A stretch of DNA of 33,775 bases, from the IMG/VR virus record IMGVR_UViG_3300028558_000073, positions 1-33,775 of that record; one strand, given 5' to 3'. Below, in pieces: positions 3,434-32,197 of the stretch (positions within the stretch are counted from its first letter, which is position 1; every line of letters starts with the position of its first letter). Source of the stretch: a virus. The notes beneath the pieces are model-generated. The model had not been told where the DNA came from and searched no databases. It saw only the letters and a list, made by a program, of their open reading frames with translations. The position numbers and the translations under genes are program-made.

Positions 3434-4917
3434 TAAAAACTTGCGTTTGTGACAAAGATACATATATTGTTAATAGAATTATCAATAACGTTCATACATT
3501 AAACGCAAACGTGGGTAGTGCTGGAACGTGTGATTTGTACAAATTGTATGGATTTTCGTCTTCTGAGTCGGTTCCAAACGTAGAATTATCTCGACTATTA
3601 ATACACTTTGATTTAAATCCTTTACGTGAATTAATAAATGAAAATAAGCTTGATATATCGAATGCATCGTTTAATGCAAAAATGATACTTCACGATGTTT
3701 ATGGTGGACAACCGACACCTTCAAATTTTACAATCGACGTGTTTCCGCTGTCTGCTTCTTTTGATGAGGGAGCAGGACGTGACATCATTCAATATTCAGA
3801 CATCGATGCATGTAATTGGCTCACTTCATCATTTGGTTCTACGTCGTCAATTCTTTGGCACGCACCCGGGTGTGCATTAGCATCAATTCCCCCTGCAGTA
3901 GGAGACTATTTTAGCAATTATAAATCTTCACAGACATTCAAAGGCGAAGAAGATTTATCGATTGACGTGACACAAATGGTGTCTGCAACGCTATCCGGAT
4001 TGATACCCGATGAGGGATTTCGAATAGCCTTTAGCTCAACGTTAGAAAATGATTATCACACTTATTTTGTGAAGCGTTTTGCCGCAAGGTCAGCATACGA
4101 CAAAACGCTCGTTCCTGAACTCGTAATTAAATTTGATAATTCAATTCAAGACGACAGTCAGGCTGCGCATATAGACACACCAACAACGTTGTTTTTGTAC
4201 AATTATGTTGGGAGTGGATTATCAAACATATTGTCTGCAAGTAACGCAGTTATAGGGACAAACAGTTTAAAACTACGATTAGAAATGCCAGTGTCAGGTG
4301 GAAGCATTGTGTTGCCCTATTTTGTGTCACAGCACTATTCAGGAATTAATTCAGTCGTAGGCGTGTATTCTTCGTCGTTCACTATACAATCAACGCAACA
4401 AATCACAAAAGAGCTCATAAACAGTGGATCACTAACGTTTACACCAATTTGGAGCTCACTTGACAACTCAATTGGATATGCAACAGGAAGCGTTGTTACG
4501 TTTTATCCACCTCAACGCACGTCAAGTCAATTAGGCACAAAAAAATACGTCGTCAACGTGTTAGGAGTGTCTGATGATTATTCAATTTGTGAAACGACAA
4601 CGTTACGCGTAAACATTTTTGATTATTCATCACCATTAATAACAGTCGTTAAAGTTCCCGTTGAATTACCTGGAATTGTTGTACGTGACGTACATTATCA
4701 AGTTCGTGACGTTGAAACGAACGATGTCAAAATTCCATTTGACACGAAGTACAATTCAACGCGTGTTTCAAGCGATACATCAGGAATGTTTTTTGAACTT
4801 GACATGTCAAATTTGGTACCTGAACACACGTATGCAATTGATATATTGATTAAAACAAATGGCGTGCAAAGGGTGTATAAAGATGCAAGTCAGGCGTTTA
4901 GAGTGCTTTCTGCGTAA
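3430..4917 (+). CDS. Baseplate/tail structural protein with jelly-roll (DNRLRE-like) N-terminal half
   Basis: 495 residues. The start ATG overlaps the endonuclease stop (ATGA). Residues about 50-240 look like a beta-sandwich of the DNRLRE/carbohydrate-binding type: a strand with SRLLIHFDL, then DLSIDVTQMV, then DEGFRIAF, and a final PELVIKF strand. The second half (about 250-495) is rich in Ser, Thr and Val and appears to be repeated beta-domains (TLFLYNYVG; PVSGGSIVLPYF). The position after the gp6-like gene suggests a wedge or peripheral baseplate component, possibly binding surface glycans. No T4 counterpart is recognised. Confidence 0.65.
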   Translation: MIKTCVCDKDTYIVNRIINNVHTLNANVGSAGTCDLYKLYGFSSSESVPNVELSRLLIHFDLNPLRELINENKLDISNASFNAKMILHDVYGGQPTPSNFTIDVFPLSASFDEGAGRDIIQYSDIDACNWLTSSFGSTSSILWHAPGCALASIPPAVGDYFSNYKSSQTFKGEEDLSIDVTQMVSATLSGLIPDEGFRIAFSSTLENDYHTYFVKRFAARSAYDKTLVPELVIKFDNSIQDDSQAAHIDTPTTLFLYNYVGSGLSNILSASNAVIGTNSLKLRLEMPVSGGSIVLPYFVSQHYSGINSVVGVYSSSFTIQSTQQITKELINSGSLTFTPIWSSLDNSIGYATGSVVTFYPPQRTSSQLGTKKYVVNVLGVSDDYSICETTTLRVNIFDYSSPLITVVKVPVELPGIVVRDVHYQVRDVETNDVKIPFDTKYNSTRVSSDTSGMFFELDMSNLVPEHTYAIDILIKTNGVQRVYKDASQAFRVLSA

Positions 4918-4935: not shown

Positions 4936-7900
4936 GTGGCTCAATCACAATTAAACATTCCGTCATTTGTGCGGTCGGCATTGTCAGGAAGTCGTCCTGT
5001 GCAACTTACGTTTGCGGACGTTGCAGACACAAACATTCAAAGTACGTCATCGTTCATGTACGACATAACGTCTGCTGCGCTTAAATCAACGCAACAACTA
5101 AAAGTCGATTGGTCAAAATTTGAAAATCACACGTTCTTTTCTTCTGCGGAATCGAAGATAAATTTTACGTTTGATCAAATAATAAACGGTTATCCATTTG
5201 ATGGAACGAGACAAGAGGTTGAAGCATTTTTAGAAAAATTAACAGGATTTGAAAATTGGGTTTTGACTAAAAAGTTTCCAACGTACAAAGGAGAACTACT
5301 ATTTTCTGGTTCATTTATTGAAGTTAAAGACGTTGCAGGTGGACTTTACCCTGACATATCAAAAAATCGATCAGGTGATCCAATCTTAAATCCACATGGC
5401 ACGTCATTTAGTGCAGAAATGCAACTTTTTCTACCGGTGACAAATAATTCTACACAATTTGTGTTTCAAAAAATGTCAGGAAGCTCTGAAGGAATAGCAT
5501 TATACTTGATGCCAAGTTCAACAGACGTAGTTGAAGCAAGGTTTAGCGTTGTATCTCAAGGGTTTGGTGACATCACTGTACCATTTGAAATATCAAAAGG
5601 AGTGTTCAATCACATTTGTGTGCAAATAAACAGAGAGAATTCTGTGAACTATCTTGAAGCATTTGTCAACGAACAATCGGTGTCTAAATCAAAAACATCA
5701 ACAATCATAAATGATCTAAACAATGATGCAGCAAGCTTTTTTATAGGCGTTCCTAATGTATCTGGAACGATAAACTTATCAACAGGTGTGATTACACAAT
5801 CTCAAATGTTGAGTGGTGTACTTGATGAATTTCGCGTATTTCATTCAGTTAGATCATTAAATCAACAAGCAAATTTTGCAAAAAAATCAATATTTTCTAC
5901 TTCTGATCTAAAATTGTATTATCGTTTCAATGAACCGCCACCGCCAATCATGTCAACAATCGACGATCCGGTGAATGGAATAGTGATAGATAGTAGCGGA
6001 AATTCTTTACATGCATTAATAACTAACTTTACGTCATCGCTAAGATTAGACGCATCGTTAGATAAAGCAAGCAATTTGATCTACGAAAAGATTGAAACGT
6101 TACCCGTGCTTTTTCCAGCGTATCAACCGACAATTGATTTAAACAATGAACTACTTGCAAGTGCATCACTGTATGATGCTGAAAATCCCAATTTAATTAC
6201 AAAACTAATACCACAACATTATCTTCTTGAAGGCAGCGATCAAGGCGGATTTAATTCTACGACTGAAATACAAAAATCGTCAGGCATTGGAATTCCGGGA
6301 GATGGCGAAAAGAGTACCGTACAAATAATGTTGTCATTGTTATACATATGGGCGAAATTTTTTGATGAAATTAAGTTATACATTGATCAATTTCGAAATC
6401 TTAAAACAGTATCTTATGATGATTACGACAATGTTCCAAATAATTTTATGTTGGATTTGTTACAACAAAGCGGAATTTATCTCCCACCTCTATTTAATGA
6501 CGCGTCAATAGAACAATACATTAGAGCAGAAAATATTGACATTGACACGTACGGCACGTTTGAAACGTCACTAAAAACTGTTCAACATGAACTGTTAAAA
6601 CGAATAGTGATAAATTTGCCTGATGTTCTTAAATCAAAGGGTACATTGAACAGCGTAAAGTCATTTTTACGTGCGATGGGAATTGATCCCGACAACAGCA
6701 TGCGCATACGTGAATATGGTGGACCAACAAATCGAACGCTTGAACAATCAAGAGAAGCAAAAAGAACTGTCGGCACGTTTGTGCAATTTTCAACGTCATC
6801 AATCGTGACGTCCAATTATCTTGTTGAACCACGCGTTGAACCCGGCATACCATATCCCGTAGGAACGTTTGTGACGAATTCGTTTGGAAACGTTACGGGA
6901 ACAACAAACGTATCTGATAATTTATTGACGTCAGGATCATGGACGTGTGAAATGCTTGTCAAATTTTTGCCAAATATATCATACGTATCACAAAGTATCG
7001 CAAGACTTTGTGTAACAGGTTCTTCTATTACAAACATCAATAATATTGGAACAATTGTAAACATTGTCGCGACATCAGGTTCAAATTCAAACATTACGCT
7101 GTACGCGAGGCCGTGTCAGAACACAGAAACTTTAGTCATGACACTGCCAATGCTTACGCAAAGCATTTTTGATAGTGATGCGTGGAACATAAGTTTTGGA
7201 CTACAGCGTGGAGATTTACACTCACCACCAATACCTACGTCATCTTCATACTTTTTACGAATTGGTAAACAAAACGCCGGAGAAATTGATTACGCCGCAT
7301 CAATATCGTCAATTTTTAATGTAACAGATTTTGGAATTGAAACTGACATCACAGACGATTTAGACGTAAACATAATTTTAGATAGCAGCCAACAGGTCAT
7401 TGACGACGATTTAGTCGCGACAAATGCATTTAGAAGCGTGACTGATTTTAATGGATCAGGTTCGTTCATTGTGCTGGGCAACAAAGACATGTACCCGGGT
7501 ACAATATATCTTGAAGACGCATCAATAACTCCACAAGCAAGAACTTCAAAATTTTCTGGTCAAATGTCAAACGTAAGATTTTGGACAAAAGCAATAACAA
7601 TACGCGAGTGGAAAGAACACGTAAGAAACGTAAAATCTGTGGGTGTCGATGATCCAGCAATAAATTATAACTTTAATAAAGCCGATCCAGGATCTTTTGA
7701 AAAACTACGCATTGACACGTTATCAAAACAAGAAATTCGTGACACTGACACGAAAGGAAACATAAATTTCTTAGATTTTAGTCTAAATAAAATGCACATG
7801 TCTGGAACGTTATTTCCTGTTTCAAGCAGAGCCGTTGTTGGAGAAATATTTGATTATAGCATGCTTTCACCGTACTTTGACGAAGCGGTGTGTGACAATA

Positions 7901-13310: not shown

Positions 13311-13869
13311 ATGATTTGCTCCTATTTTCGAATGTAACACTAACGTATCTGAATTTCTTATCCCACGACGGGATAAGGATCAAGAGTTGTCTTTGATTGA
13401 CTTTGCCCGTTGAAGGATTTGCAACAACAATTGAATGTGAAGTCGAGTTTAAATCAATACCAACGAAATTCTGTGACTTCATCACTTCAACATCAGGAAT
13501 TGTGACTTGAACGTATGCCCAAACTTTGTCAAGTTCAATCTGATTTACCTTTGTGAAGTCTGTGCGAAACCAAAAATTGAAAGAACTTTTAAGACAAGGA
13601 AGTCGAATTGTTTTGTTCTTGAGATCAACTTTGACATTCTGTCCAGGAAGGGTTAATTTGACTTTCTTTGGATTAACTTTCTTGATCGTTTTACTTTTTC
13701 CATACTTTCTGATGATTTGATTTGCAATCTCAGATTTTAATCCAAATTGCTTGACAGACTTTGTTGAACAAGAACCGTGTTCAATAGCAAACTGTGCAAC
13801 CTTGACTGCATTTTCAAAAAGAGAATGATCAAGTTGCAACTTGTGTTTGACTTTAAACGTTAGGATCAT
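13255..13869 (-). pseudogene. tnpB: Truncated TnpB (IS200/IS605 OrfB) fragment
   Basis: From the ATG at 13869 the frame is 204 residues, about half of a normal TnpB. Residues about 1-157 look like the N-terminal half: FKVKHKLQL, a helical stretch with IANQIIRKYG, the beta segment FNFWFRTDF, WAYVQVTIPDVEV, and the RuvC-I motif NFVGIDLNSTSHSIVVAN with catalytic Asp139. After residue about 160 similarity ends. The frame reads through the right-end palindrome (IPSWDKK) and on into flanking DNA overlapping the next gene. The RuvC-II and RuvC-III residues and the C-terminal zinc finger are missing, so it cannot be a working nuclease. It is probably an internal-deletion remnant; a domesticated small protein is a less likely alternative. 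Confidence 0.7.
13357..13377. repeat. Palindrome at the 3' (right) end of the TnpB remnant
   Basis: CTTATCCC pairs perfectly with GGGATAAG around ACGAC (8 bp stem, 5 nt loop), extendable by a G-T and an A-T pair. It is related to the palindromes at 13915 and 17384 by the core ATCCC-ACGA-x-GGGAT. It lies where an IS605-type right-end hairpin is expected. In intact TnpB systems the guide RNA ends at this boundary. Confidence 0.65.
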
Positions 13870-13914: not shown

Positions 13915-13935
13915 GTCATCCCACGAGGGGATAAC
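13915..13935. repeat. Palindrome at the 5' (left) end of the TnpB remnant
   Basis: ATCCC pairs with GGGAT around ACGAG. After one C/A mismatch, two more pairs (T-A, G-C) extend the stem. It lies 46 bp upstream of the TnpB fragment ATG on the - strand, the expected place for an IS605-type left-end hairpin. The core is identical to the solitary copy at 17384-17412. Confidence 0.6.
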
Positions 13936-13965: not shown

Positions 13966-14769
13966 TCACATTTTAGACTTTTGCCACAATAAAAAGTCAT
14001 CATTACACACGTATTGTTTACATTTGGAGTTCCATTTTTTGGGAAGCGTGTGTCTTAGTGATATCAAAAAAGGTAACAGTGGGCGAGTGGGTGGTAATTT
14101 TGCCTCTCTATAGTCTTCTACGTTGTCTTTCCACGCGAATTGTGATTTGAACTCACTAAATCCAAATCCATCAAAGAAATTCTCTCCGCCCACAAGCGGT
14201 ATGTACCACAATGAAGGAATGCCATGTGGATTAACTTTTAAAGGAATTTCTTTCACAAAGCGTTGAAGCAATTCGCTGCCTTTTTCGTCGTCCTTAACGT
14301 AGTCTTTTAGTTCTTCATATGCCGTGTACTCAACTGGTGGGCTAACGAACAACACTGGCTTTCGCTGTTGCCTTGCGAGCGATATTTCATGAGGAGTACC
14401 AACGCTGTAGATATTTGTCGGGCATCGAGCTATCACAATGTCACATGTGTCAACCATACGTAGGTCGACATGCATTGTTTCTCTATACTTCAACACAAGT
14501 TCACCACGAACTTCTGCACCCGCCTGTGTATCTTCAAACGTCCAACGACTTAGATCGCACGTTGTGTTAACACCTTCTTTCCCATAACCTAAAAATCCAC
14601 GCAATGACGGCTTTTTCCACGGGTCAAACACAACACACCCCTGTGCCTTCAGAAAGTCCCCCATGCGTGTTCGCCACCCGTTTTCTGCCTCTTCTTCACG
14701 CGAAGCAACAAAATCCATGGGACCGCTTAGGTAAACACGCACACCGCTAAGAAAGTTTATATTTGACAT
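13966..14769 (-). CDS. Nucleoside 2-deoxyribosyltransferase-like protein
   Basis: 267 residues from the ATG at 14769, which overlaps the preceding stop as TGATG. The N-terminal 150 residues match the family: VYLSGPMDF at 12-20, VVFDPW at 46-51, the helix DLRMVDTCDIVIARCP at 102-117, and SVGTPHEISLARQQRKPVLF with the likely catalytic Glu128 in the G-T-x-x-E context. These enzymes exchange or hydrolyse bases on 2'-deoxynucleosides. In a phage this could serve nucleotide salvage, base modification or nucleotide-signal turnover. The C-terminal 85 residues, with many Trp and Pro, are outside the family and unrecognised. The protein is about 100 residues longer than single-domain relatives. The specific reaction is not predictable. 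Confidence 0.75.
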   Translation of the reverse strand: MSNINFLSGVRVYLSGPMDFVASREEEAENGWRTRMGDFLKAQGCVVFDPWKKPSLRGFLGYGKEGVNTTCDLSRWTFEDTQAGAEVRGELVLKYRETMHVDLRMVDTCDIVIARCPTNIYSVGTPHEISLARQQRKPVLFVSPPVEYTAYEELKDYVKDDEKGSELLQRFVKEIPLKVNPHGIPSLWYIPLVGGENFFDGFGFSEFKSQFAWKDNVEDYREAKLPPTRPLLPFLISLRHTLPKKWNSKCKQYVCNDDFLLWQKSKM

Positions 14770-14993
14770 CAAACTTCGTCCAATTCAATTACTGGTCGCC
14801 ATTCAGCATTTGGCGCCAAACAATCACCATGTCCAACAATGTACACCATATTTCCGTTGATATTAACACGTGTTAATACTTTTTCACTCGGTGCGGCGGT
14901 GATACGTTGCAAACGCCAACGAAGCGCATCACATATTTCATTCATTTTTTCATATGTGTATTCATTTGCAATTACGTCTAATGAAATTTTCAT
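14769..14993 (-). CDS. Small hypothetical protein (74 aa)
   Basis: The ATG at 14993 lies one base after the TAA of the upstream gene, and its own stop overlaps the next ATG (TGATG), so it is part of a coupled operon. Predicted alpha/beta: MKISLDVIANEY, a helix YEKMNEICDALRWRLQRI, then strands VLTRVNINGNMVYIVGHG. No family recognised. An in-frame start further upstream is possible but would overlap the previous gene by over 60 bases, so the shorter form is preferred. Confidence 0.6.
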   Translation of the reverse strand: MKISLDVIANEYTYEKMNEICDALRWRLQRITAAPSEKVLTRVNINGNMVYIVGHGDCLAPNAEWRPVIELDEV

Positions 14994-15446: not shown

Positions 15447-16838
15447 TCATTTACACTTCTTGATGAAGATTTTTGTTTCATTCGAGTCGAATGCAAGTTT
15501 GTCACCTGTCATCAAAACCCACGCTCGTTTTTTGCGACACGATTTTGGCTTGGGCGCGCCACCATCTGTAACAATCATCAAGGCGTCCCACCTTCCACGA
15601 TTTTTTGGATCATTGAACAATTCTGTGGGTGCGTCAAAGCTCGTGCCACCCGTCTTCACGCGCTTCAACTTTACTTTTGCACACTTTCGAAGGGTGATGA
15701 TTTGTTTTCTGTCCAAAGCACAGTCAAATGGAACATAGTCAACTTCGACTTTGCGCGTCAAGCTCAATATTTCTGCAATGAAATATGACAACAAATCATC
15801 GTCAACGCTTCCACTTTGGTCGACTGCGACTAACAACTTTGCAGTGCGATTTCTTTTGACGCCTGGATGATCGTATGGTTGTTTACGATTTAGTTTTTTG
15901 ATAGTTGAACTGCGCCCACCGGTTGCGAGTGATCCAACAAATTGTTTTAGAGCTTTTCTCCAATCGATTGTTCGAGACACTCTTTGACGAATTTCGTCTC
16001 GAACTGAAGCAGGTATGTTCCCCCACCCGTTTGTCGTTTGGTCTGCGTGTTGAATTGCTTTTTCAACGATCGACTTTACTTTTGCTTTTGTCCTATCGTC
16101 TGAACCATCATCCGAGTTACCATCCTGCCACCCAGAATGATTGTCGAGCTGTTTTCCAAGTAAACCTTTTTGTGATGCATTTTTGCTTCCTGATTGATCG
16201 TCAGAAGAACCACCATTACCATTTTCGTCACAATCAGATCCTGAACCTTTTTTTCCCTTGAGACCGTTCTTTCCGGGCGCGCCCGGACCTGGTTTGCTTC
16301 CTTTTACGTTGCCATCACCATCACACGCATCGTTGTCAGAACAATCTTCGATTTCTTTTTTTAATCTTTCGAAGTACCATTCGCTTGCTTGAAGCGGTGG
16401 GAATTTCTTCACAAGCTCAACAAGCGCAGGATCACCTGCAATCGTTGCACCAGGAATTAGTGCACTTTTTGGTAATTGTATGTTTTTGTCGTTTGTCGTC
16501 TTAATTATCGAATTGACAGCCAAATCAGTCGCATAATTCCAAATGATGTGCCACTTTTTGTCAGGCATACGAGTGAAGATGTGTTCATTTATGATGTGAT
16601 AGAATTCGTGAACGATGACGCCCATGATTTCTTGAGGCTGAAGCGCTTTAAAGAACGTTGGCGACCACAACAATTGTAGTTCATCTAATTCTTTGTTATA
16701 CAATACACCTGCAGTTTCAATTGTTTCACACGGTATCTTGTGAATGTTACGCGAAATCTCTGCGTAAAATGGTACGTGTCGTAGCAAATTCACGAGGTGT
16801 TTGTCGAGGTTGAACTCTGTCTCAACGCTTTCGTACAT
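15447..16838 (-). CDS. Putative metallopeptidase-VWA protein (DUF2201/CobT-like), MoxR partner
   Basis: 463 residues. The N-terminal 150 residues carry a zinc-peptidase-like motif VIVHEFYHIINEH (H77-E78-x2-H81). A Gly/Ser/Asp-rich linker (about 190-260) follows. The C-terminal VWA domain has a MIDAS motif D340-Q-S342-G-S344, a Thr in GGT near 399 and D425 in IVTDGG. This layout is typical of VWA-like proteins that work with MoxR-type AAA+ ATPases, one of which is encoded 1.6 kb away at 18476. It probably binds a target through the VWA domain while the ATPase remodels it; the target is unknown. The start lies 6 nt after the extended -10 element TGGTATAAT and has no SD, so the mRNA may be leaderless. 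Confidence 0.8.
   Translation of the reverse strand: MYESVETEFNLDKHLVNLLRHVPFYAEISRNIHKIPCETIETAGVLYNKELDELQLLWSPTFFKALQPQEIMGVIVHEFYHIINEHIFTRMPDKKWHIIWNYATDLAVNSIIKTTNDKNIQLPKSALIPGATIAGDPALVELVKKFPPLQASEWYFERLKKEIEDCSDNDACDGDGNVKGSKPGPGAPGKNGLKGKKGSGSDCDENGNGGSSDDQSGSKNASQKGLLGKQLDNHSGWQDGNSDDGSDDRTKAKVKSIVEKAIQHADQTTNGWGNIPASVRDEIRQRVSRTIDWRKALKQFVGSLATGGRSSTIKKLNRKQPYDHPGVKRNRTAKLLVAVDQSGSVDDDLLSYFIAEILSLTRKVEVDYVPFDCALDRKQIITLRKCAKVKLKRVKTGGTSFDAPTELFNDPKNRGRWDALMIVTDGGAPKPKSCRKKRAWVLMTGDKLAFDSNETKIFIKKCK
16272..16287. repeat. 16 bp perfect palindrome with GGCGCGCC core
   Basis: TCCGGGCGCGCCCGGA equals its own reverse complement. It lies in the part of the VWA gene encoding the Gly/Pro-rich linker (Gly-Pro-Gly-Ala-Pro-Gly). 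The codons for these residues are GC-rich anyway, but the exact symmetry is unusual in this AT-rich DNA. Confidence 0.6.
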
Positions 16839-16844
16839 ACAATT

Positions 16845-16853
16845 ATTATACCA
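16845..16853 (-). promoter_or_regulatory. Extended -10 promoter of the VWA gene, 6 nt before the ATG
   Basis: TG-G-TATAAT followed by AATTGT and then ATG. The hexamer is a perfect consensus, and transcription starting about 7 nt downstream would begin at the A of the ATG. A weak TTGTAA lies 17 bp upstream as a possible -35 element. Confidence 0.65.
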
Positions 16854-17304
16854 CGTTTTTTGATTTTTTACAATTCACAGGAACGTAATTGTCGTCGTCA
16901 ATATAAAAAATGCTCCTGTTTGCAAATATTGTTGGATCTAATTTTTCTAAATTTGTCATGCCAATTGAACCATCTGGATTTATGTGTTCCCTTGCACGTT
17001 CAAAGCACATTGTTACTTCTTTTGCCCACTTTTCACCAACTTGCGTGTTCACGAACGTTTGTCGCATTTGTTTGCGACCGGTTTTCGTGAAGCCACGTTG
17101 GACTTTTCCTTTGCTTTCAATGAGCGTTTGTCGCAAAAATCCACTGTTCAAAAAATATTCGTAGTTCGAAGACGACATGTAACCCACCAACGACCCATGT
17201 TGTAATATGTGTGCGTGGTACAAACACTCTTCAGCCGTCAATGGACCATGTTGTGAAATTGCGTAACAAATGAAGTGTGACTTTGTGAGGCGTACTTTCA
17301 CCAT
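16846..17304 (-). CDS. Putative winged-helix DNA-binding protein (152 aa)
   Basis: ATG at 17304, chosen because an extended -10 lies exactly 6 nt upstream; an earlier in-frame start would lie inside that promoter. Residues about 5-85 read like a winged helix: LTKSHFICYAISQHGPLTAEE, a recognition-type helix, then SGFLRQTLIESKGKV and RGFTKTGRKQM, the usual wing with T-x-x-G-R. The C-terminal third contains HINPDGSIG, shared with the divergently encoded protein at 17600. It overlaps the VWA gene promoter region and may regulate the divergent cluster. The regulator role is inferred. Confidence 0.6.
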   Translation of the reverse strand: MVKVRLTKSHFICYAISQHGPLTAEECLYHAHILQHGSLVGYMSSSNYEYFLNSGFLRQTLIESKGKVQRGFTKTGRKQMRQTFVNTQVGEKWAKEVTMCFERAREHINPDGSIGMTNLEKLDPTIFANRSIFYIDDDNYVPVNCKKSKNVV

Positions 17305-17310
17305 GTGACA

Positions 17311-17319
17311 AATATAACA
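17311..17319 (-). promoter_or_regulatory. Extended -10 promoter of the winged-helix gene, 6 nt before the ATG
   Basis: TG-T-TATATT, then TGTCAC, then ATG. There is no Shine-Dalgarno sequence, so a leaderless transcript is predicted. It points away from the + strand promoter at 17345-17353. Confidence 0.6.
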
Positions 17320-17344
17320 CAAATGTGTCTTTTTTACATTTTTG

Positions 17345-17353
17345 TGATATTAT
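17345..17353 (+). promoter_or_regulatory. Extended -10 element, 6 nt before an ATG at 17360
   Basis: TG-A-TATTAT, then GATTTC, then ATG at 17360. The frame from that ATG is only 15 codons and stops inside the 17384-17412 palindrome. This suggests the gene this promoter served has been disrupted, or that a nearby start in another frame is used. Confidence 0.55.
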
Positions 17354-17576
17354 GATTTCATGGTTTATGTTCGAATTGACAAGAATAGTCATCCCACGAG
17401 GGGATGACTATTTGACTTTGAACCCAAATTTGCTCATGCTTGGCCGGCCAAAACGATGGCATTTTTTGACTGTTGACATGAAGTTGAAACCGCTTCACAA
17501 TGAACCTTGGAAAAATGTGCTTGTGAATGCGCACGAAAAATTAATTTGTGCAGCAGAAAATTGGATTAAACGTTAG
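17352..17576 (+). CDS. Possible small protein, perhaps disrupted by a palindrome
   Basis: An open frame from the ATG at 17352 (or 17367) to the TAG at 17574-17576. The C-terminal 45 residues (LGRPKRWHFLTVDMKLKPL, then NEPWKNVLVNAHEKL, ending AENWIKR) look like a genuine protein. The N-terminal part is translated through the 17384-17412 palindrome as VIPRGDD. The ATG best placed for the promoter (17360) is in another frame and ends after 15 codons, so the original gene may have been split by insertion of the palindrome. Family unknown; low certainty. Confidence 0.35.
   Translation: MISWFMFELTRIVIPRGDDYLTLNPNLLMLGRPKRWHFLTVDMKLKPLHNEPWKNVLVNAHEKLICAAENWIKR
17384..17412. repeat. Solitary copy of the IS-end-type palindrome (12 bp stem)
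   Basis: AATAGTCATCCC pairs perfectly with GGGATGACTATT around the loop ACGAG. The core is identical to the palindrome at 13915. This is the strongest hairpin in the window. There is no poly-T after it, so a terminator is unlikely. It could be a REP/MITE-like derivative of the element at 13341-13940. Confidence 0.65.
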
Positions 17577-17584
17577 ATAAACTG

Positions 17585-17593
17585 TGGTAATAT
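17585..17593 (+). promoter_or_regulatory. Extended -10 promoter of the beta-helix/Gly-rich gene
   Basis: TG-G-TAATAT, then GTCTAT, then ATG at 17600, again exactly 6 nt and without an SD. A leaderless transcript is predicted. Confidence 0.6.
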
Positions 17594-17599
17594 GTCTAT

Positions 17600-18445
17600 A
17601 TGCATAGACAAACGCATGTGTTTGATTACCTAAACGACGGTGATAAAAATCAACGCGTCTTTGGTCAATTCAAATTTTGTCTCGACCAAGACGAAGTTCC
17701 TGCACATCGTCACATTAATCCCGATGGTTCGCTTGGTGGGTGGGTTGCTGAAACTGCGTACGTTGACGTCAGTGCATATGTGGATGAAACAGCTACGGTG
17801 TACGACACTGCACGCGTGATAGGTGCTTCAATCATTGAACCGTTCGCAAAAGTGTGTGATGATGAAGTCATTAATGACAAAGACTTTGCTGATGTCTTCA
17901 CGTCGTGGGCTGAAACTTCTCCCAAAGCAGAAGCTTTAGCGGCAAAGTACGAAAAACGTATCAAACACAATTCAACCATAAAAGAATTTACAAATGTTGT
18001 TGAAAAGCTTTTTGAAAAAAGCGTGAAAGAATTCAAAGATTTAGATGAGTTATCGTCAGTTGAAGAATTCATCCAATATAAGGTCGACAATGACGAATTT
18101 TCGTTCACAACTGTTGAACTTCAAGCGCTCGCACACAACGTTGATTATTCGCAAAGAAAGATCAAGAACGCTCTCCCGCCTACTGCTTTAGTGAAAACAA
18201 TAAAGAATGAACTTGTATCACTTGGATTGAAGTTCATTCCACGAGAGTCACCAAGGTTCACACGTGGTGCACGTAGCGGTTCACACGGTACACACCCATT
18301 CGCAGGTTCAGGTGGCGGTGGATCAGGAATGGGTTCAGGACGTGAAGGGCCGAGTGGGTTTTCGTTTGGTGGAGGCCCAGGTGTGATGGGCGGTGGGTAC
18401 AAGTGGGACAAAAACGACAAGAAAAACTTGAAGATGTGTAAATAA
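17600..18445 (+). CDS. Unknown protein with a short hexapeptide-repeat segment and a Gly-rich tail
   Basis: 281 residues. Residues about 38-90 (HINPDGSLGGWVAETAYVD and onward, with VSAYVDETATVYDTARV) have the spacing of left-handed beta-helix hexapeptide repeats, though only about two turns. Residues 95-205 are helical and charged. From about 220 the chain is Gly/Ser-rich with the motif GSHGTHPFAGSGGGG, then ends basic. The first gene of the + strand run, it is followed directly by the MoxR-type ATPase, so it may be a substrate or adaptor of the MoxR-VWA pair. HINPDGS is shared with the divergent winged-helix protein. Family not recognised. Confidence 0.6.
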   Translation: MHRQTHVFDYLNDGDKNQRVFGQFKFCLDQDEVPAHRHINPDGSLGGWVAETAYVDVSAYVDETATVYDTARVIGASIIEPFAKVCDDEVINDKDFADVFTSWAETSPKAEALAAKYEKRIKHNSTIKEFTNVVEKLFEKSVKEFKDLDELSSVEEFIQYKVDNDEFSFTTVELQALAHNVDYSQRKIKNALPPTALVKTIKNELVSLGLKFIPRESPRFTRGARSGSHGTHPFAGSGGGGSGMGSGREGPSGFSFGGGPGVMGGGYKWDKNDKKNLKMCK

Positions 18446-18455
18446 TCAACAAAAG

Positions 18456-18464
18456 TGATATACT
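18456..18464 (+). promoter_or_regulatory. Possible extended -10 promoter of the MoxR gene (11 nt gap)
   Basis: TG-A-TATACT lies 11 nt before the ATG at 18476. The longer gap allows a very short leader of about 4-5 nt. No SD is visible. It resembles the exact-6 promoters but is less certain. Confidence 0.4.
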
Positions 18465-18475
18465 AAAACAACACT

Positions 18476-19549
18476 ATGACACAGATGAGTATCAAATCAT
18501 TCGTTGAAGTAGCAAAATTGCTTCCCATTGAACAAAGTGTGATGGTCAGAGGAAATCACGGAATTGGGAAGTCGGACGTCGTTCGAATGCTTGCCCATGA
18601 AATGGGTTTCAAAAAAGAAGACGTCATCGACCAGCGCCTTGCACAAAAAACTGAAGGTGACATCATCGGCATGCCCGATAGAAATGGGCAGACGACAAGG
18701 TTTCTACCACTCGATTGGTTGATCAGCGCATGTGAAGCACCAAAGCTATTATTTTTCGATGAGCTCAATCGAGCGACAATTGAGGTCATGCAAAGCGTTT
18801 TTGAGCTCGCACTTGATCGTGGGTTGAATGGAAATAAACTACATCCTGGAACTCGAGTTTACGTTGCTATCAATGCAGACACACAGTACACAGTGAACGA
18901 AATTGATCCTGCGCTCCTCGATAGGTTTTGGGTGGTTGACCTAAATCCCACAGTTGACGATTGGATCACCTGGGCACGTCGTACAGATGCATTCGGCGGT
19001 GACGTCAGTGAAACAACGATTGAGTTCATTCAGTGCAACGCAAAATTCCTTGATCCCGAGAAGAACGTTGAACAGGACAAAGTGACTGTCTCTCGTAGGT
19101 CCTGGAAGAAGCTCGACAATGCTCTCAAGAATGCGAAGTTGATCGACACGCCTGAGAGCGACGTCTTTTATCACATGTGTTTGGGTTTCATAGGAGTCGA
19201 AGCAACAATCGCGTTCCAGGCTTTTGCAAAGAAAACAGACAATCGCCTCACCGGTGAGGACATCATTTGCGCAAAAGATTACGAAAAGCTGCGTAAGAAG
19301 TTCAAGAAGCTTGGTCAAGAACAACACAACGTGTGCATTGAGCGCATCACACATTACCTTCTCACGATGGACGCAAAAGATCTTTCAGAATTACAATTAG
19401 AAAACCTTTATACGTTCGTCAAAGAACTTCCTGGTGAACTGCGTGTTTCACAGTGGGCAAAGTTGATGCAATCGGGTACAAAGAAAATTGAGCTCGCGAG
19501 GCAGATACAGAAAAAGTGTAGTGATTTGATTGTAGAGGTGCACAAGTGA
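18476..19549 (+). CDS. MoxR/CobS-type AAA+ ATPase
   Basis: 357 residues. Walker A is G26-NHGIG-K32-S33, Walker B is LLFFDELNRA with D95-E96, sensor 1 is near N133 in VYVAINADTQY, and DPALLDRFW carries the likely arginine finger R150. This is the usual MoxR order and size. MoxR ATPases act with VWA-domain proteins as chaperones that activate or insert cofactors into target proteins. The obvious partner is the VWA protein at 15447-16838 on the other strand. The last codons overlap the next gene's GTG. The substrate in this phage is unknown. Confidence 0.85.
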   Translation: MTQMSIKSFVEVAKLLPIEQSVMVRGNHGIGKSDVVRMLAHEMGFKKEDVIDQRLAQKTEGDIIGMPDRNGQTTRFLPLDWLISACEAPKLLFFDELNRATIEVMQSVFELALDRGLNGNKLHPGTRVYVAINADTQYTVNEIDPALLDRFWVVDLNPTVDDWITWARRTDAFGGDVSETTIEFIQCNAKFLDPEKNVEQDKVTVSRRSWKKLDNALKNAKLIDTPESDVFYHMCLGFIGVEATIAFQAFAKKTDNRLTGEDIICAKDYEKLRKKFKKLGQEQHNVCIERITHYLLTMDAKDLSELQLENLYTFVKELPGELRVSQWAKLMQSGTKKIELARQIQKKCSDLIVEVHK

Positions 19550-19767
19550 TATTTAGACGTTACAAGAAACCAAAGATTGGTGACACACGTGAAGTGAAGC
19601 GGTTTGCATGGTGGCCAAGAAGTTTGGGTGATGATTACATCATTTGGCTTGGTTTCTACATGATTTATCAACGATATGATCCCTGGCCGGGTCAGCCCGA
19701 TTGGCGTGAATTTACGTCAGAAGAATACAAAAATTGTTCGCGACATTGGATTTCATTAAATGAGTGA
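19546..19767 (+). CDS. Small hypothetical protein (73 aa)
   Basis: GTG start at 19546 overlapping the MoxR stop, with GAGGTG as SD inside the ATPase gene, so it is translationally coupled. The protein is aromatic-rich (seven Trp) with a basic start: FRRYKKPKIGD, then FAWWPRSLGDDYIIWLGFY. No family recognised. It may be an accessory factor of the MoxR pair, on context only. Confidence 0.6.
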   Translation: MIFRRYKKPKIGDTREVKRFAWWPRSLGDDYIIWLGFYMIYQRYDPWPGQPDWREFTSEEYKNCSRHWISLNE

Positions 19768-19803
19768 TAGAATAATTTTGCTTCCTAATTATGTTTTGGA
19801 AGC

Positions 19804-20394
19804 ATGCCGTCGTCGTTCAACGTTGACTTGTGGCGTTCTCGAGCCCGTCAGAGGCACGTTGATAGGTTTACGAAAAAACACGACAATCATTTATCGTCAA
19901 TTTTACTAAAAAATGATTTAACTGCGATTGATGGTATCAAAGAAGTCATTGATTGGTGTAACATAAAAGGTATCAAAGTCATTTTAAATGCCAAAGAACT
20001 TGGTGGCACGTTTGAACAGTCAACACGTGAAATGATATTGAATACACGGCTTTTGCCACAAAAAATGCTTCACCTGATGTTGCACGAAGCCGGTCATATG
20101 TTGATTGGCGATAGCAAACCAAACGCTCGCTTTGGACGTGGTTACAACGCAAAAAAGACGTCAGACAAGGCTAAAAACTTTTCCCACCGCGTAGATGTCA
20201 TAGACGAAGAACTTTGCGCCTGGGCAGAGGGCGAAAAGCTCGCAAAGAAACTAAAAATTACGTTGAACAGGGATGAATACATCTCAACGCGTGACAAGAA
20301 CGTAAAGGGATATTTAGAGTGGGTAGTACGAGCAGGTAAATTCAGGCATCTAAAGGACGAAGACGACACTGACACGTATGCCGATGATACTTAA
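19804..20394 (+). CDS. Putative HExxH zinc metallopeptidase (ImmA/IrrE-like by motif only)
   Basis: 196 residues. The motif MLHLMLHEAGHMLIGD near residues 83-98 has HEAGH, the zinc-binding H-E-x-x-H helix. Downstream, VIDEELCAWAEGEKLAKKL supplies an E-x-x-A-x-x-x-G/E helix, as in gluzincin-type peptidases. The C-terminus is charged and acidic (DEDDTDTYADDT). It follows the MoxR operon, giving this cluster two HExxH proteins. The start is unclear: ATG 19804 has GGAAG only 1 nt away, while an ATG at 19760 coupled to the previous stop is in another frame. Target unknown. Confidence 0.65.
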   Translation: MPSSFNVDLWRSRARQRHVDRFTKKHDNHLSSILLKNDLTAIDGIKEVIDWCNIKGIKVILNAKELGGTFEQSTREMILNTRLLPQKMLHLMLHEAGHMLIGDSKPNARFGRGYNAKKTSDKAKNFSHRVDVIDEELCAWAEGEKLAKKLKITLNRDEYISTRDKNVKGYLEWVVRAGKFRHLKDEDDTDTYADDT

Positions 20395-30823: not shown

Positions 30824-32197
30824 ATGGAAAGAACAGTCTTAGATTGGCTTGAAGAACTTGAAAACGCGCAGGGACGCAACGCAAAGGAAGACATTCTTCG
30901 ATCAGCGTCAAAGACTGAAATTGGTGATCTACTTCGAACGATATTTTATCTCGTAGATGATCCATACGTTAACTTTGGCGTGAGCAAGTTCAAGATGCCG
31001 CCACCTGGTACGTGTCGATTGGACGACAATACATGTGTTGAATGTTTTACTGACATTTTATCTAAATTAGACGCCCGTGTCGCTACTGGAAACGCAGCAC
31101 GAAAGCTCGTCACCGATGCATTTGTGAACATGAACGTGAAGCAGCAGAAGTGGTGTCAGCGCATGATACTTCGCAACCTACGTGTAGGCGTTCAGGCGTC
31201 GACTTCTGAGAAGATTTGGCCTGGCGTCGTGCGACACTTCAACGTTGCATTGGCAGGGAAGTTGCAGGTGAAGCTCGACAAAGAAAAGGGCTTACAGATT
31301 GTCTCAAAGATTTCATTCCCGATTTTAGCAGATTGCAAATTAGATGGACTTCGATGTCTCACAGTGAAGCACGCAGGTAAAGTTACGTTGTACAGTCGGA
31401 GCGGAAAAGAAATCGTGACTTGTCAAAGGGTGCGAGATGCAATCGCAAGCGCTCCCGTTGACGACGTGGTGCTCGACGGTGAGATGCTCGGTAGTAAAGA
31501 GGGTGATTGGAACGCCGCGGCGAGCGTCATCATGTCGAGCGTCAACAAGAAGGACGATGCTGAAGTCACGTACAACGTGTTCGACACGATGTCTTACAAA
31601 GACTGGGCGAAGCAGGAAAACAACGTGCCTTTCTCTGAACGCACAAAGGCAGTCAAGGAAACTATCGAAAGGATTGACAGTGGCTACGTGAAGTACGTAG
31701 TTCCACGAGAAATCAACTCTGAGAAAGAGTTGTTGGATTATTATGCGGAGCTGCTAGAGAGCGGCAGCGAGGGAATTATGATAAAGGATCCCAAAGAGCC
31801 GTATGTTTTCGACAGAAGTGATGCGGTGAGGAAGCTGAAACCCGTGTTAACCGTCGAAGGCACAATTGTGTCTGTGTACGCGGGACGCGTGGGCACAAGC
31901 AGAGAGACAGGCATAGGTGGGTGGGAAGTTTTGTTCGAAACAGGCGTGATCACAAGAATAGGCAGCGGCTCAATGACGTCGCAGGTACAAGCGGACGTGA
32001 TGCTCGACCCACAGTCGTTTATAGGACGCATCGTGGAATGCAATGGACAACCCGACGTCGCGACGACCCATCTGTTTTCGAAGGACGGCAAGTTAAGATT
32101 TCCCCGTTTTATCAGATTTCGTGACGTTGCAGACGTTGATCAGAAAATAGTTGAACTTGGACGAAATTATCTTATACACAAGAATGAAATTGTTTAA
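30824..32197 (+). CDS. 30: ATP-dependent DNA ligase (T4 gp30-like)
   Basis: 457 residues, close to 487 in T4. The adenylated lysine is K172 in DCK172LDGLR (motif I). VVLDGEMLG (motif III region), VTYNVFDTM, SEGIMIKDP (motif IV) and RKLKP (motif V) follow in order, then an OB-fold C-terminus (GWEVLF, GRIVECNGQ). The start at 30824 was chosen because the promoter lies 6 nt upstream and earlier in-frame codons would fall inside the preceding gene. It seals nicks during phage replication and repair, in the cytoplasm. It is more GC-rich in codon use than the structural genes. Confidence 0.93.
   Translation: MERTVLDWLEELENAQGRNAKEDILRSASKTEIGDLLRTIFYLVDDPYVNFGVSKFKMPPPGTCRLDDNTCVECFTDILSKLDARVATGNAARKLVTDAFVNMNVKQQKWCQRMILRNLRVGVQASTSEKIWPGVVRHFNVALAGKLQVKLDKEKGLQIVSKISFPILADCKLDGLRCLTVKHAGKVTLYSRSGKEIVTCQRVRDAIASAPVDDVVLDGEMLGSKEGDWNAAASVIMSSVNKKDDAEVTYNVFDTMSYKDWAKQENNVPFSERTKAVKETIERIDSGYVKYVVPREINSEKELLDYYAELLESGSEGIMIKDPKEPYVFDRSDAVRKLKPVLTVEGTIVSVYAGRVGTSRETGIGGWEVLFETGVITRIGSGSMTSQVQADVMLDPQSFIGRIVECNGQPDVATTHLFSKDGKLRFPRFIRFRDVADVDQKIVELGRNYLIHKNEIV

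Follow-up and report, generated by a model that had tools for sequence, protein, structure and literature searches.

We found that the window, by which we mean the whole stretch of 33,775 bases from an IMG/VR virus record analysed here, is a marine phage fragment carrying the widespread phage pair of a MoxR-type AAA+ ATPase and a VWA protein, rearranged head-to-head and with a zincin alongside. It also encodes tail proteins (baseplate wedge), an ATP-dependent DNA ligase and a sigma-factor-like protein. The window is thus a rearranged variant of an already known phage pair; the observation made in the preliminary description of this DNA is confirmed and its interpretation is partly supported. 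We assign a probability of about 0.5 to the reading that the pair is a remodelling machine of the phage N4 gp24/gp25 type, with its genes rearranged to opposite strands, an optional zincin, and a middle or DNA-metabolism client likelier than a virion one. The features concerned are collected in Table 1.

Table 1. Features of the window (position 1 is its first base), with the basis of each call or a remark.
Feature	Coordinates	Strand	Basis or remark
VWA protein, 463 aa, N4 gp25 homologue	15447..16838	-	Pfam, PHROG, alignments, structure model
Extended -10 TGGTATAAT	16839..16853	-	ends 6 nt before VWA ATG; predicted leaderless promoter
Small DNA-binding-like protein (winged helix of the preliminary description)	16846..17304	-	ATG 17304 likelier start than TTG 17322 (promoter spacing)
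Extended -10 TGTTATATT	17305..17319	-	6 nt before ATG 17304; conserved in L002
Perfect 12-bp hairpin, at break of third-HExxH remnant	17384..17412		kin at 13358-13376, 13916-13934
Third HExxH protein, C-terminal remnant	17409..17576	+	full 170-aa HEIGHHTHH protein in L003, 2867-3376 minus
Extended -10 TGGTAATAT	17585..17599	+	6 nt before Gly-rich ATG
Gly-rich protein with HINPDGSLGGWV module	17600..18445	+	linked to pair only in near relatives
MoxR-type AAA+ ATPase, 357 aa, N4 gp24 homologue	18476..19549	+	Pfam, PHROG, alignment
Small Trp-rich protein	19546..19767	+	start overlaps MoxR stop (GTGA); phrog_11031 E=5.5e-5
IrrE/M78-like zincin, 196 aa	19804..20394	+	HMM, alignment, model; recurrent pair neighbour in marine phage contigs
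ATP-dependent DNA ligase	30824..32197	+	start shifted to ATG 30824 from promoter spacing

The VWA protein matches PF13203 (DUF2201_N, putative metallopeptidase; E=4.8e-19), PF09967 (VWA-like; E=4.4e-7) and phrog_1314 (E=4.5e-45), and it runs from a zincin-like N-terminal domain (HEFYH, residues 77-81) through a disordered linker (about 172-230) and a helical part to a C-terminal VWA domain with its MIDAS, which bears out the combination of HEFYH and MIDAS noticed at the outset. In an alignment of the window protein with 16 others, 16-87% identical to it, H77, E78, H81, D105, N109 and the MIDAS residues D340, S342, S344, T399 and D425 are invariant; across 74 proteins the same residues, together with N101, are invariant, and by this measure of sequence conservation the constancy of HExxH and MIDAS far exceeds chance. 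The AlphaFold model (mean pLDDT 78) places the HExxH inside a helix of the N-terminal domain and gives the VWA domain a VWA fold (Z up to 12.2), and the best PDB sequence match of the N-terminal domain is a weak one to the minigluzincin MJ1213/selecase (E=0.006). The usual Glu zinc ligand is not evident in this domain and the candidate third ligand is instead D105, an uncertain one, so that the putative protease may be inactive. The label 'HNH endonuclease' attached to phrog_1314, which a number of public phage records carry, is unsupported, since an HNH family is found in 0 of 17 members and PF13203 with PF09967 in 17 of 17. Downstream of the VWA gene lies a nucleoside 2-deoxyribosyltransferase-like gene (13966-14772, minus strand; PF05014, E=7e-7), which is retained in L002 and L003, the two near relatives of the window.

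The MoxR protein belongs to phrog_1297 (E=1.7e-49) and matches PF07728 (AAA_5; E=8.2e-8); its Walker A, Walker B, sensor 1 and arginine finger are intact, with K32, D95, E96, N133 and R150 invariant among 14 proteins. A phmmer search of the PDB with it gave no match at E<=0.01. Because single-protein searches of viral contigs with the MoxR protein, and likewise with the zincin, recovered no viral relatives, narrower alignments were used as queries. A known anti-phage defence system is rejected as an identity for the locus, PADLOC giving 0 matches for five proteins.

The pairing of the two families is real and ancient. Each of the 16 records examined from isolates or named phages has both; these records were picked for matching either protein (N4 being added by name) and are therefore informative in both directions without being a random sample. 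The two genes share a strand and are no more than 3 kb apart in 14 of the 16, and in Va1 (measured round the circle) and phiTY18 they are about 45 kb apart. Among 95 VWA clusters, formed at 95% identity, MoxR is adjacent on the same strand in 86, while in the others it is on the opposite strand (1, the window), is missing from the locus (3) or the locus runs to a contig edge (5). A scan of contigs from bacterial genomes yielded only four MAG contigs; these are probably phage, binned with bacteria, since one of them is as long (101,404) as a viral contig recovered before.

The neighbours of the pair are mostly genes of DNA metabolism. In marine phages a RecA/DnaB-like ATPase lies upstream and a DNA ligase downstream, the window ligase being of the same family as the ligase found 3' of VWA in that block, and in named phages we find topoisomerase/gyrase (BpSp, PBS1), helicase and DNA polymerase (SBP1) and dCTP deaminase (N4, N38). 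We posit that the MoxR protein would form an ATP-driven hexamer, as its family suggests, on which the VWA domain would dock, and that, as NorQD leads one to expect by analogy, the MIDAS metal would grip an acidic site of the client. The HExxH domain at the N-terminus, tethered by a flexible linker, may bind or cleave this client; what the stand-alone zincin processes may be that client again or a regulator of the host. The analysis itself establishes layout, co-occurrence, homology, predicted folds of the domains and intactness of the motifs; the complex, its protease activity, its timing and its client are inferences. For the pair of group 2.2 jumbo phages, Iyer et al. (2021; PMC7824862) favour virion assembly, in which case the MoxR–VWA chaperone would remodel, and the N-terminal peptidase clip, structural proteins at maturation. 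This is consistent with the analogy they draw to a MoxR–vWA system required for the tails of Acidianus two-tailed virus, and in RaK2 and Ettore the pair does have virion structural genes close by; neighbour function is weak evidence for the client. Against it, N4 gp24/25 are middle and not late transcripts (PMC4193335), the virion proteins listed for RPP1 are encoded near the gp24/25 homologues and apparently do not include them, and most of the neighbours observed are those of DNA metabolism. We consider virion assembly rather unlikely and, from the DNA-metabolism neighbours together with the middle expression in N4, prefer a client in DNA metabolism, the predicted complex then probably acting at the middle stage.

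The layout in the window is the exception. The preliminary description had set the MoxR gene 1.6 kb from the VWA gene on the other strand; the start codons of the two are indeed 1.6 kb apart on opposite strands, the open reading frames lie at the positions given there, and two genes and one gene remnant lie between the pair. A join made in assembly, for example at a repeated hairpin, could have produced this from the usual MoxR–VWA operon, and the recurring hairpin copies, the head-to-head arrangement seen in the window alone and the different sequence that follows the Gly-rich gene in L003, where the window has MoxR, would all fit such an artefact. In the window MoxR begins 31 nt after the Gly-rich gene, L003 has no MoxR in its remaining 446 nt, and the Gly-rich–MoxR junction occurs in the window only. 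Speaking against an artefact, the independent contigs L002 and L003 share the VWA/winged-helix side, with L003 also having the divergent Gly-rich gene, and the wide separations in Va1 and phiTY18 indicate that rearrangement of the pair does occur. An artefact is accordingly a distinctly unlikely explanation, and we retain a genuine rearrangement of the N4-type pair.

The genes around the pair change fast. L003 is 86% identical to the window in the VWA protein and 96% in the Gly-rich protein, yet it has its winged-helix gene reduced to the last 45 residues, additional ORFs and an intact version of the third HExxH protein, whose remnant in the window the preliminary description had overlooked; these flanks are evidence against the compact six-gene module proposed there. 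Homologues of the winged-helix, Gly-rich and Trp-rich genes are found in no MoxR/VWA loci other than L002 and L003, and relatives of the Gly-rich gene occur on contigs without a VWA match, so that these genes show no linkage to the pair beyond the near relatives and the module is rejected for all three, whereas MoxR and VWA do co-occur (16 of 16 isolates) and the zincin recurs. Searches of Pfam and PHROG with the protein at 16846-17322 returned no family match, and thus none backing 'winged helix'; 'beta-helix' and 'Trp-rich' are labels based on sequence appearance and weak PHROG matches.

Dispersed perfect or near-perfect hairpins with the core TCATCCCACGAGGGGATGA have 3 matches in the window (<=3 mismatches) versus 0 expected, with further members in L003 at 96-120 and 1731-1755; they are possible terminators or recombination sites. 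Proteins that are not related to one another (the Gly-rich and winged-helix proteins among others) share a recurring peptide motif, NPDG[ST]-x-G, at 17717(+) and 16980(-) in the window, at 3476, 429 and 1172 in L003 and at 7022 and 8413 in the contig L021; it sits at the point where the L003 winged-helix gene diverges, resembling a recombination point. An 'LRxIIxE'-like N-terminal tag, possibly a targeting signal, is likewise borne by otherwise unlike proteins (window 20420 and 20701; L003 1820; contig L116 about 5650).

The window contains 9 places where the end of an extended -10 element (TGnTAwhhT) stands exactly 6 nt ahead of an ATG, versus 0.7 expected from 200 first-order Markov sequences (maximum 5). 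Since a scan for sigma-70 promoters was weak (17 sites versus 11.4 expected), we base the promoter claim on this spacing, from which leaderless transcripts are predicted, as are new start codons such as that of the DNA ligase. The sites, often with a GTGTAA-like element upstream, include 16853(-), 17319(-), 17345(+), 17585(+), 25081(+), 29737(-) and 30809(+), and several precede plausible frames (VWA, the winged-helix gene from its start at 17304, Gly-rich and DNA ligase). An element like TGGTATAAT precedes the VWA gene of L003, and TGATATACT lies 11 nt upstream of the MoxR start; the marine VWA loci taken together show no such spacing preference. Co-regulation from divergent promoters by the winged-helix protein had been suggested earlier: divergent promoter-like sites at 17319(-) and 17345(+) are plausible and conserved in L002, but nothing links the winged-helix protein to such regulation and the genes appear, from the predicted elements, to be separately promoted.

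The second HExxH protein seen in the preliminary description stands as a zincin with an HEAGH motif (H94, E95, G97, H98) followed by invariant E135, E136, A139 and W140; H94, E95, H98 and the downstream E135/E136 are invariant in 38 zincin sequences. A search of phages with it gave no match, and an HMM of marine zincins with the window protein left out scores it at E=8.5e-21. Its score against PF06114 (M78), 15.5 bits, is under the curated cut-off of 22, and we therefore term it IrrE-like and do not file it as an M78 member; PF06114 is matched by 6 of 13 members of the zincin family (best 3.1e-5). The predicted fold is IrrE/PprI-like, with 3dte as the best VIA match (Z 7.9, rmsd 2.6 over 92 residues), and Foldseek gave no match at E<=0.001; the model has N-terminal helices additional to those of IrrE/PprI (M78).

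When the VWA loci were scanned, homologues of the zincin turned up on the upstream side of MoxR, at a distance of 1.5-2 kb. Since VWA had served to collect these loci, a follow-up search used marine zincins as its only seeds; six of the seeds stem from the VWA loci, and the seeds, being drawn from the linked block, are biased towards it. In 34 of the 49 viral loci recovered, the MoxR and VWA genes follow about 1.6 kb downstream on the strand of the zincin; one reaches a contig end and 14 have neither gene within the fetched stretch, four of these 14 having VWA elsewhere on the contig, some 16-23 kb off. The marine block comprises zincin, RecA/DnaB-like ATPase, membrane protein, MoxR, VWA and DNA ligase, and its synteny may stem from descent. 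Phylogenetically, the zincin of the window clusters, on a long branch, with the unlinked zincins, and the gene is absent from 16 of 16 isolate genomes and from the majority of the large contigs tested. The zincin is accordingly optional as a partner of MoxR–VWA and not a fixed subunit. A bolder scheme, in which a MoxR ring, the VWA/zincin adaptor and the IrrE-like zincin would constitute a three-part machine, with the ATP-driven remodeller presenting clients to a site-specific phage protease or activating it, strikes us as speculative and quite improbable; were it true, this protease would cut a host or phage DNA-metabolism protein. In marine phages the genes of the three parts remain linked while varying in order.

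Metal insertion is one among several known outcomes of MoxR–VWA action, and the preliminary description had entertained it. A system of this kind, like cobaltochelatase CobST or NorQD and loading metal into a cofactor or enzyme, would fit the MoxR–VWA architecture common to NorQD and the phage CobS/CobT AAA+ and VWA pairs that are widespread in tailed viruses (PMC8651126), yet it is very improbable, for the MoxR protein matches phrog_249 ('porphyrin biosynthesis') only at 1.4e-6 versus 1.7e-49 for phrog_1297 and the VWA protein matches no CobT family, on which grounds a CobS/CobT identity is rejected.

The N4-type reading bears on more than this locus: throughout the N4-like family gp24 and gp25 belong to the core genes, gp25 has tblastn matches in 642 phage records, and our literature search found no experiment on the MoxR–VWA pair for any phage. 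The 'HNH endonuclease' label is misleading, and the corrected assignment makes the function of gp24/gp25 testable with phage N4 on E. coli K-12. The recurring zincin neighbour is a specific additional candidate partner in marine phages.

Compared with known systems, the window pair resembles the MoxR–VWA couples of cells, NorQ/NorD among them, in combining a MoxR ring with a VWA/MIDAS adaptor, and differs from such adaptors in its N-terminal domain, the DUF2201_N HExxH; in NorQD, client activation depends on the MIDAS but ring binding does not, and the pore of the hexamer is plugged by the VWA (PMC9976466). Unlike phage CobS/CobT, its family scores favour phrog_1297/phrog_1314. The pair was already known as a prediction, since its architecture is that of the MoxR–vWA chaperone/co-chaperone, with an N-terminal metallopeptidase on the vWA protein, which the passages of Iyer et al. 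on group 2.2 jumbo phages describe, and homologues are present in jumbo phages such as RaK2; those passages give neither a layout variant nor a separate zincin partner. The closest likeness is to N4 gp24/gp25 (phrog_1297/phrog_1314), listed as core products of the N4-like viruses (PMC7650795; Schitoviridae), with which both families, their domains and their invariant residues are shared. N4 gp24 and gp25 lie side by side on one strand, an adjacency that is usual for the type and not defining, as Va1 and phiTY18 lack it; the window pair, in contrast, is encoded on opposite strands, with a zincin next to MoxR.
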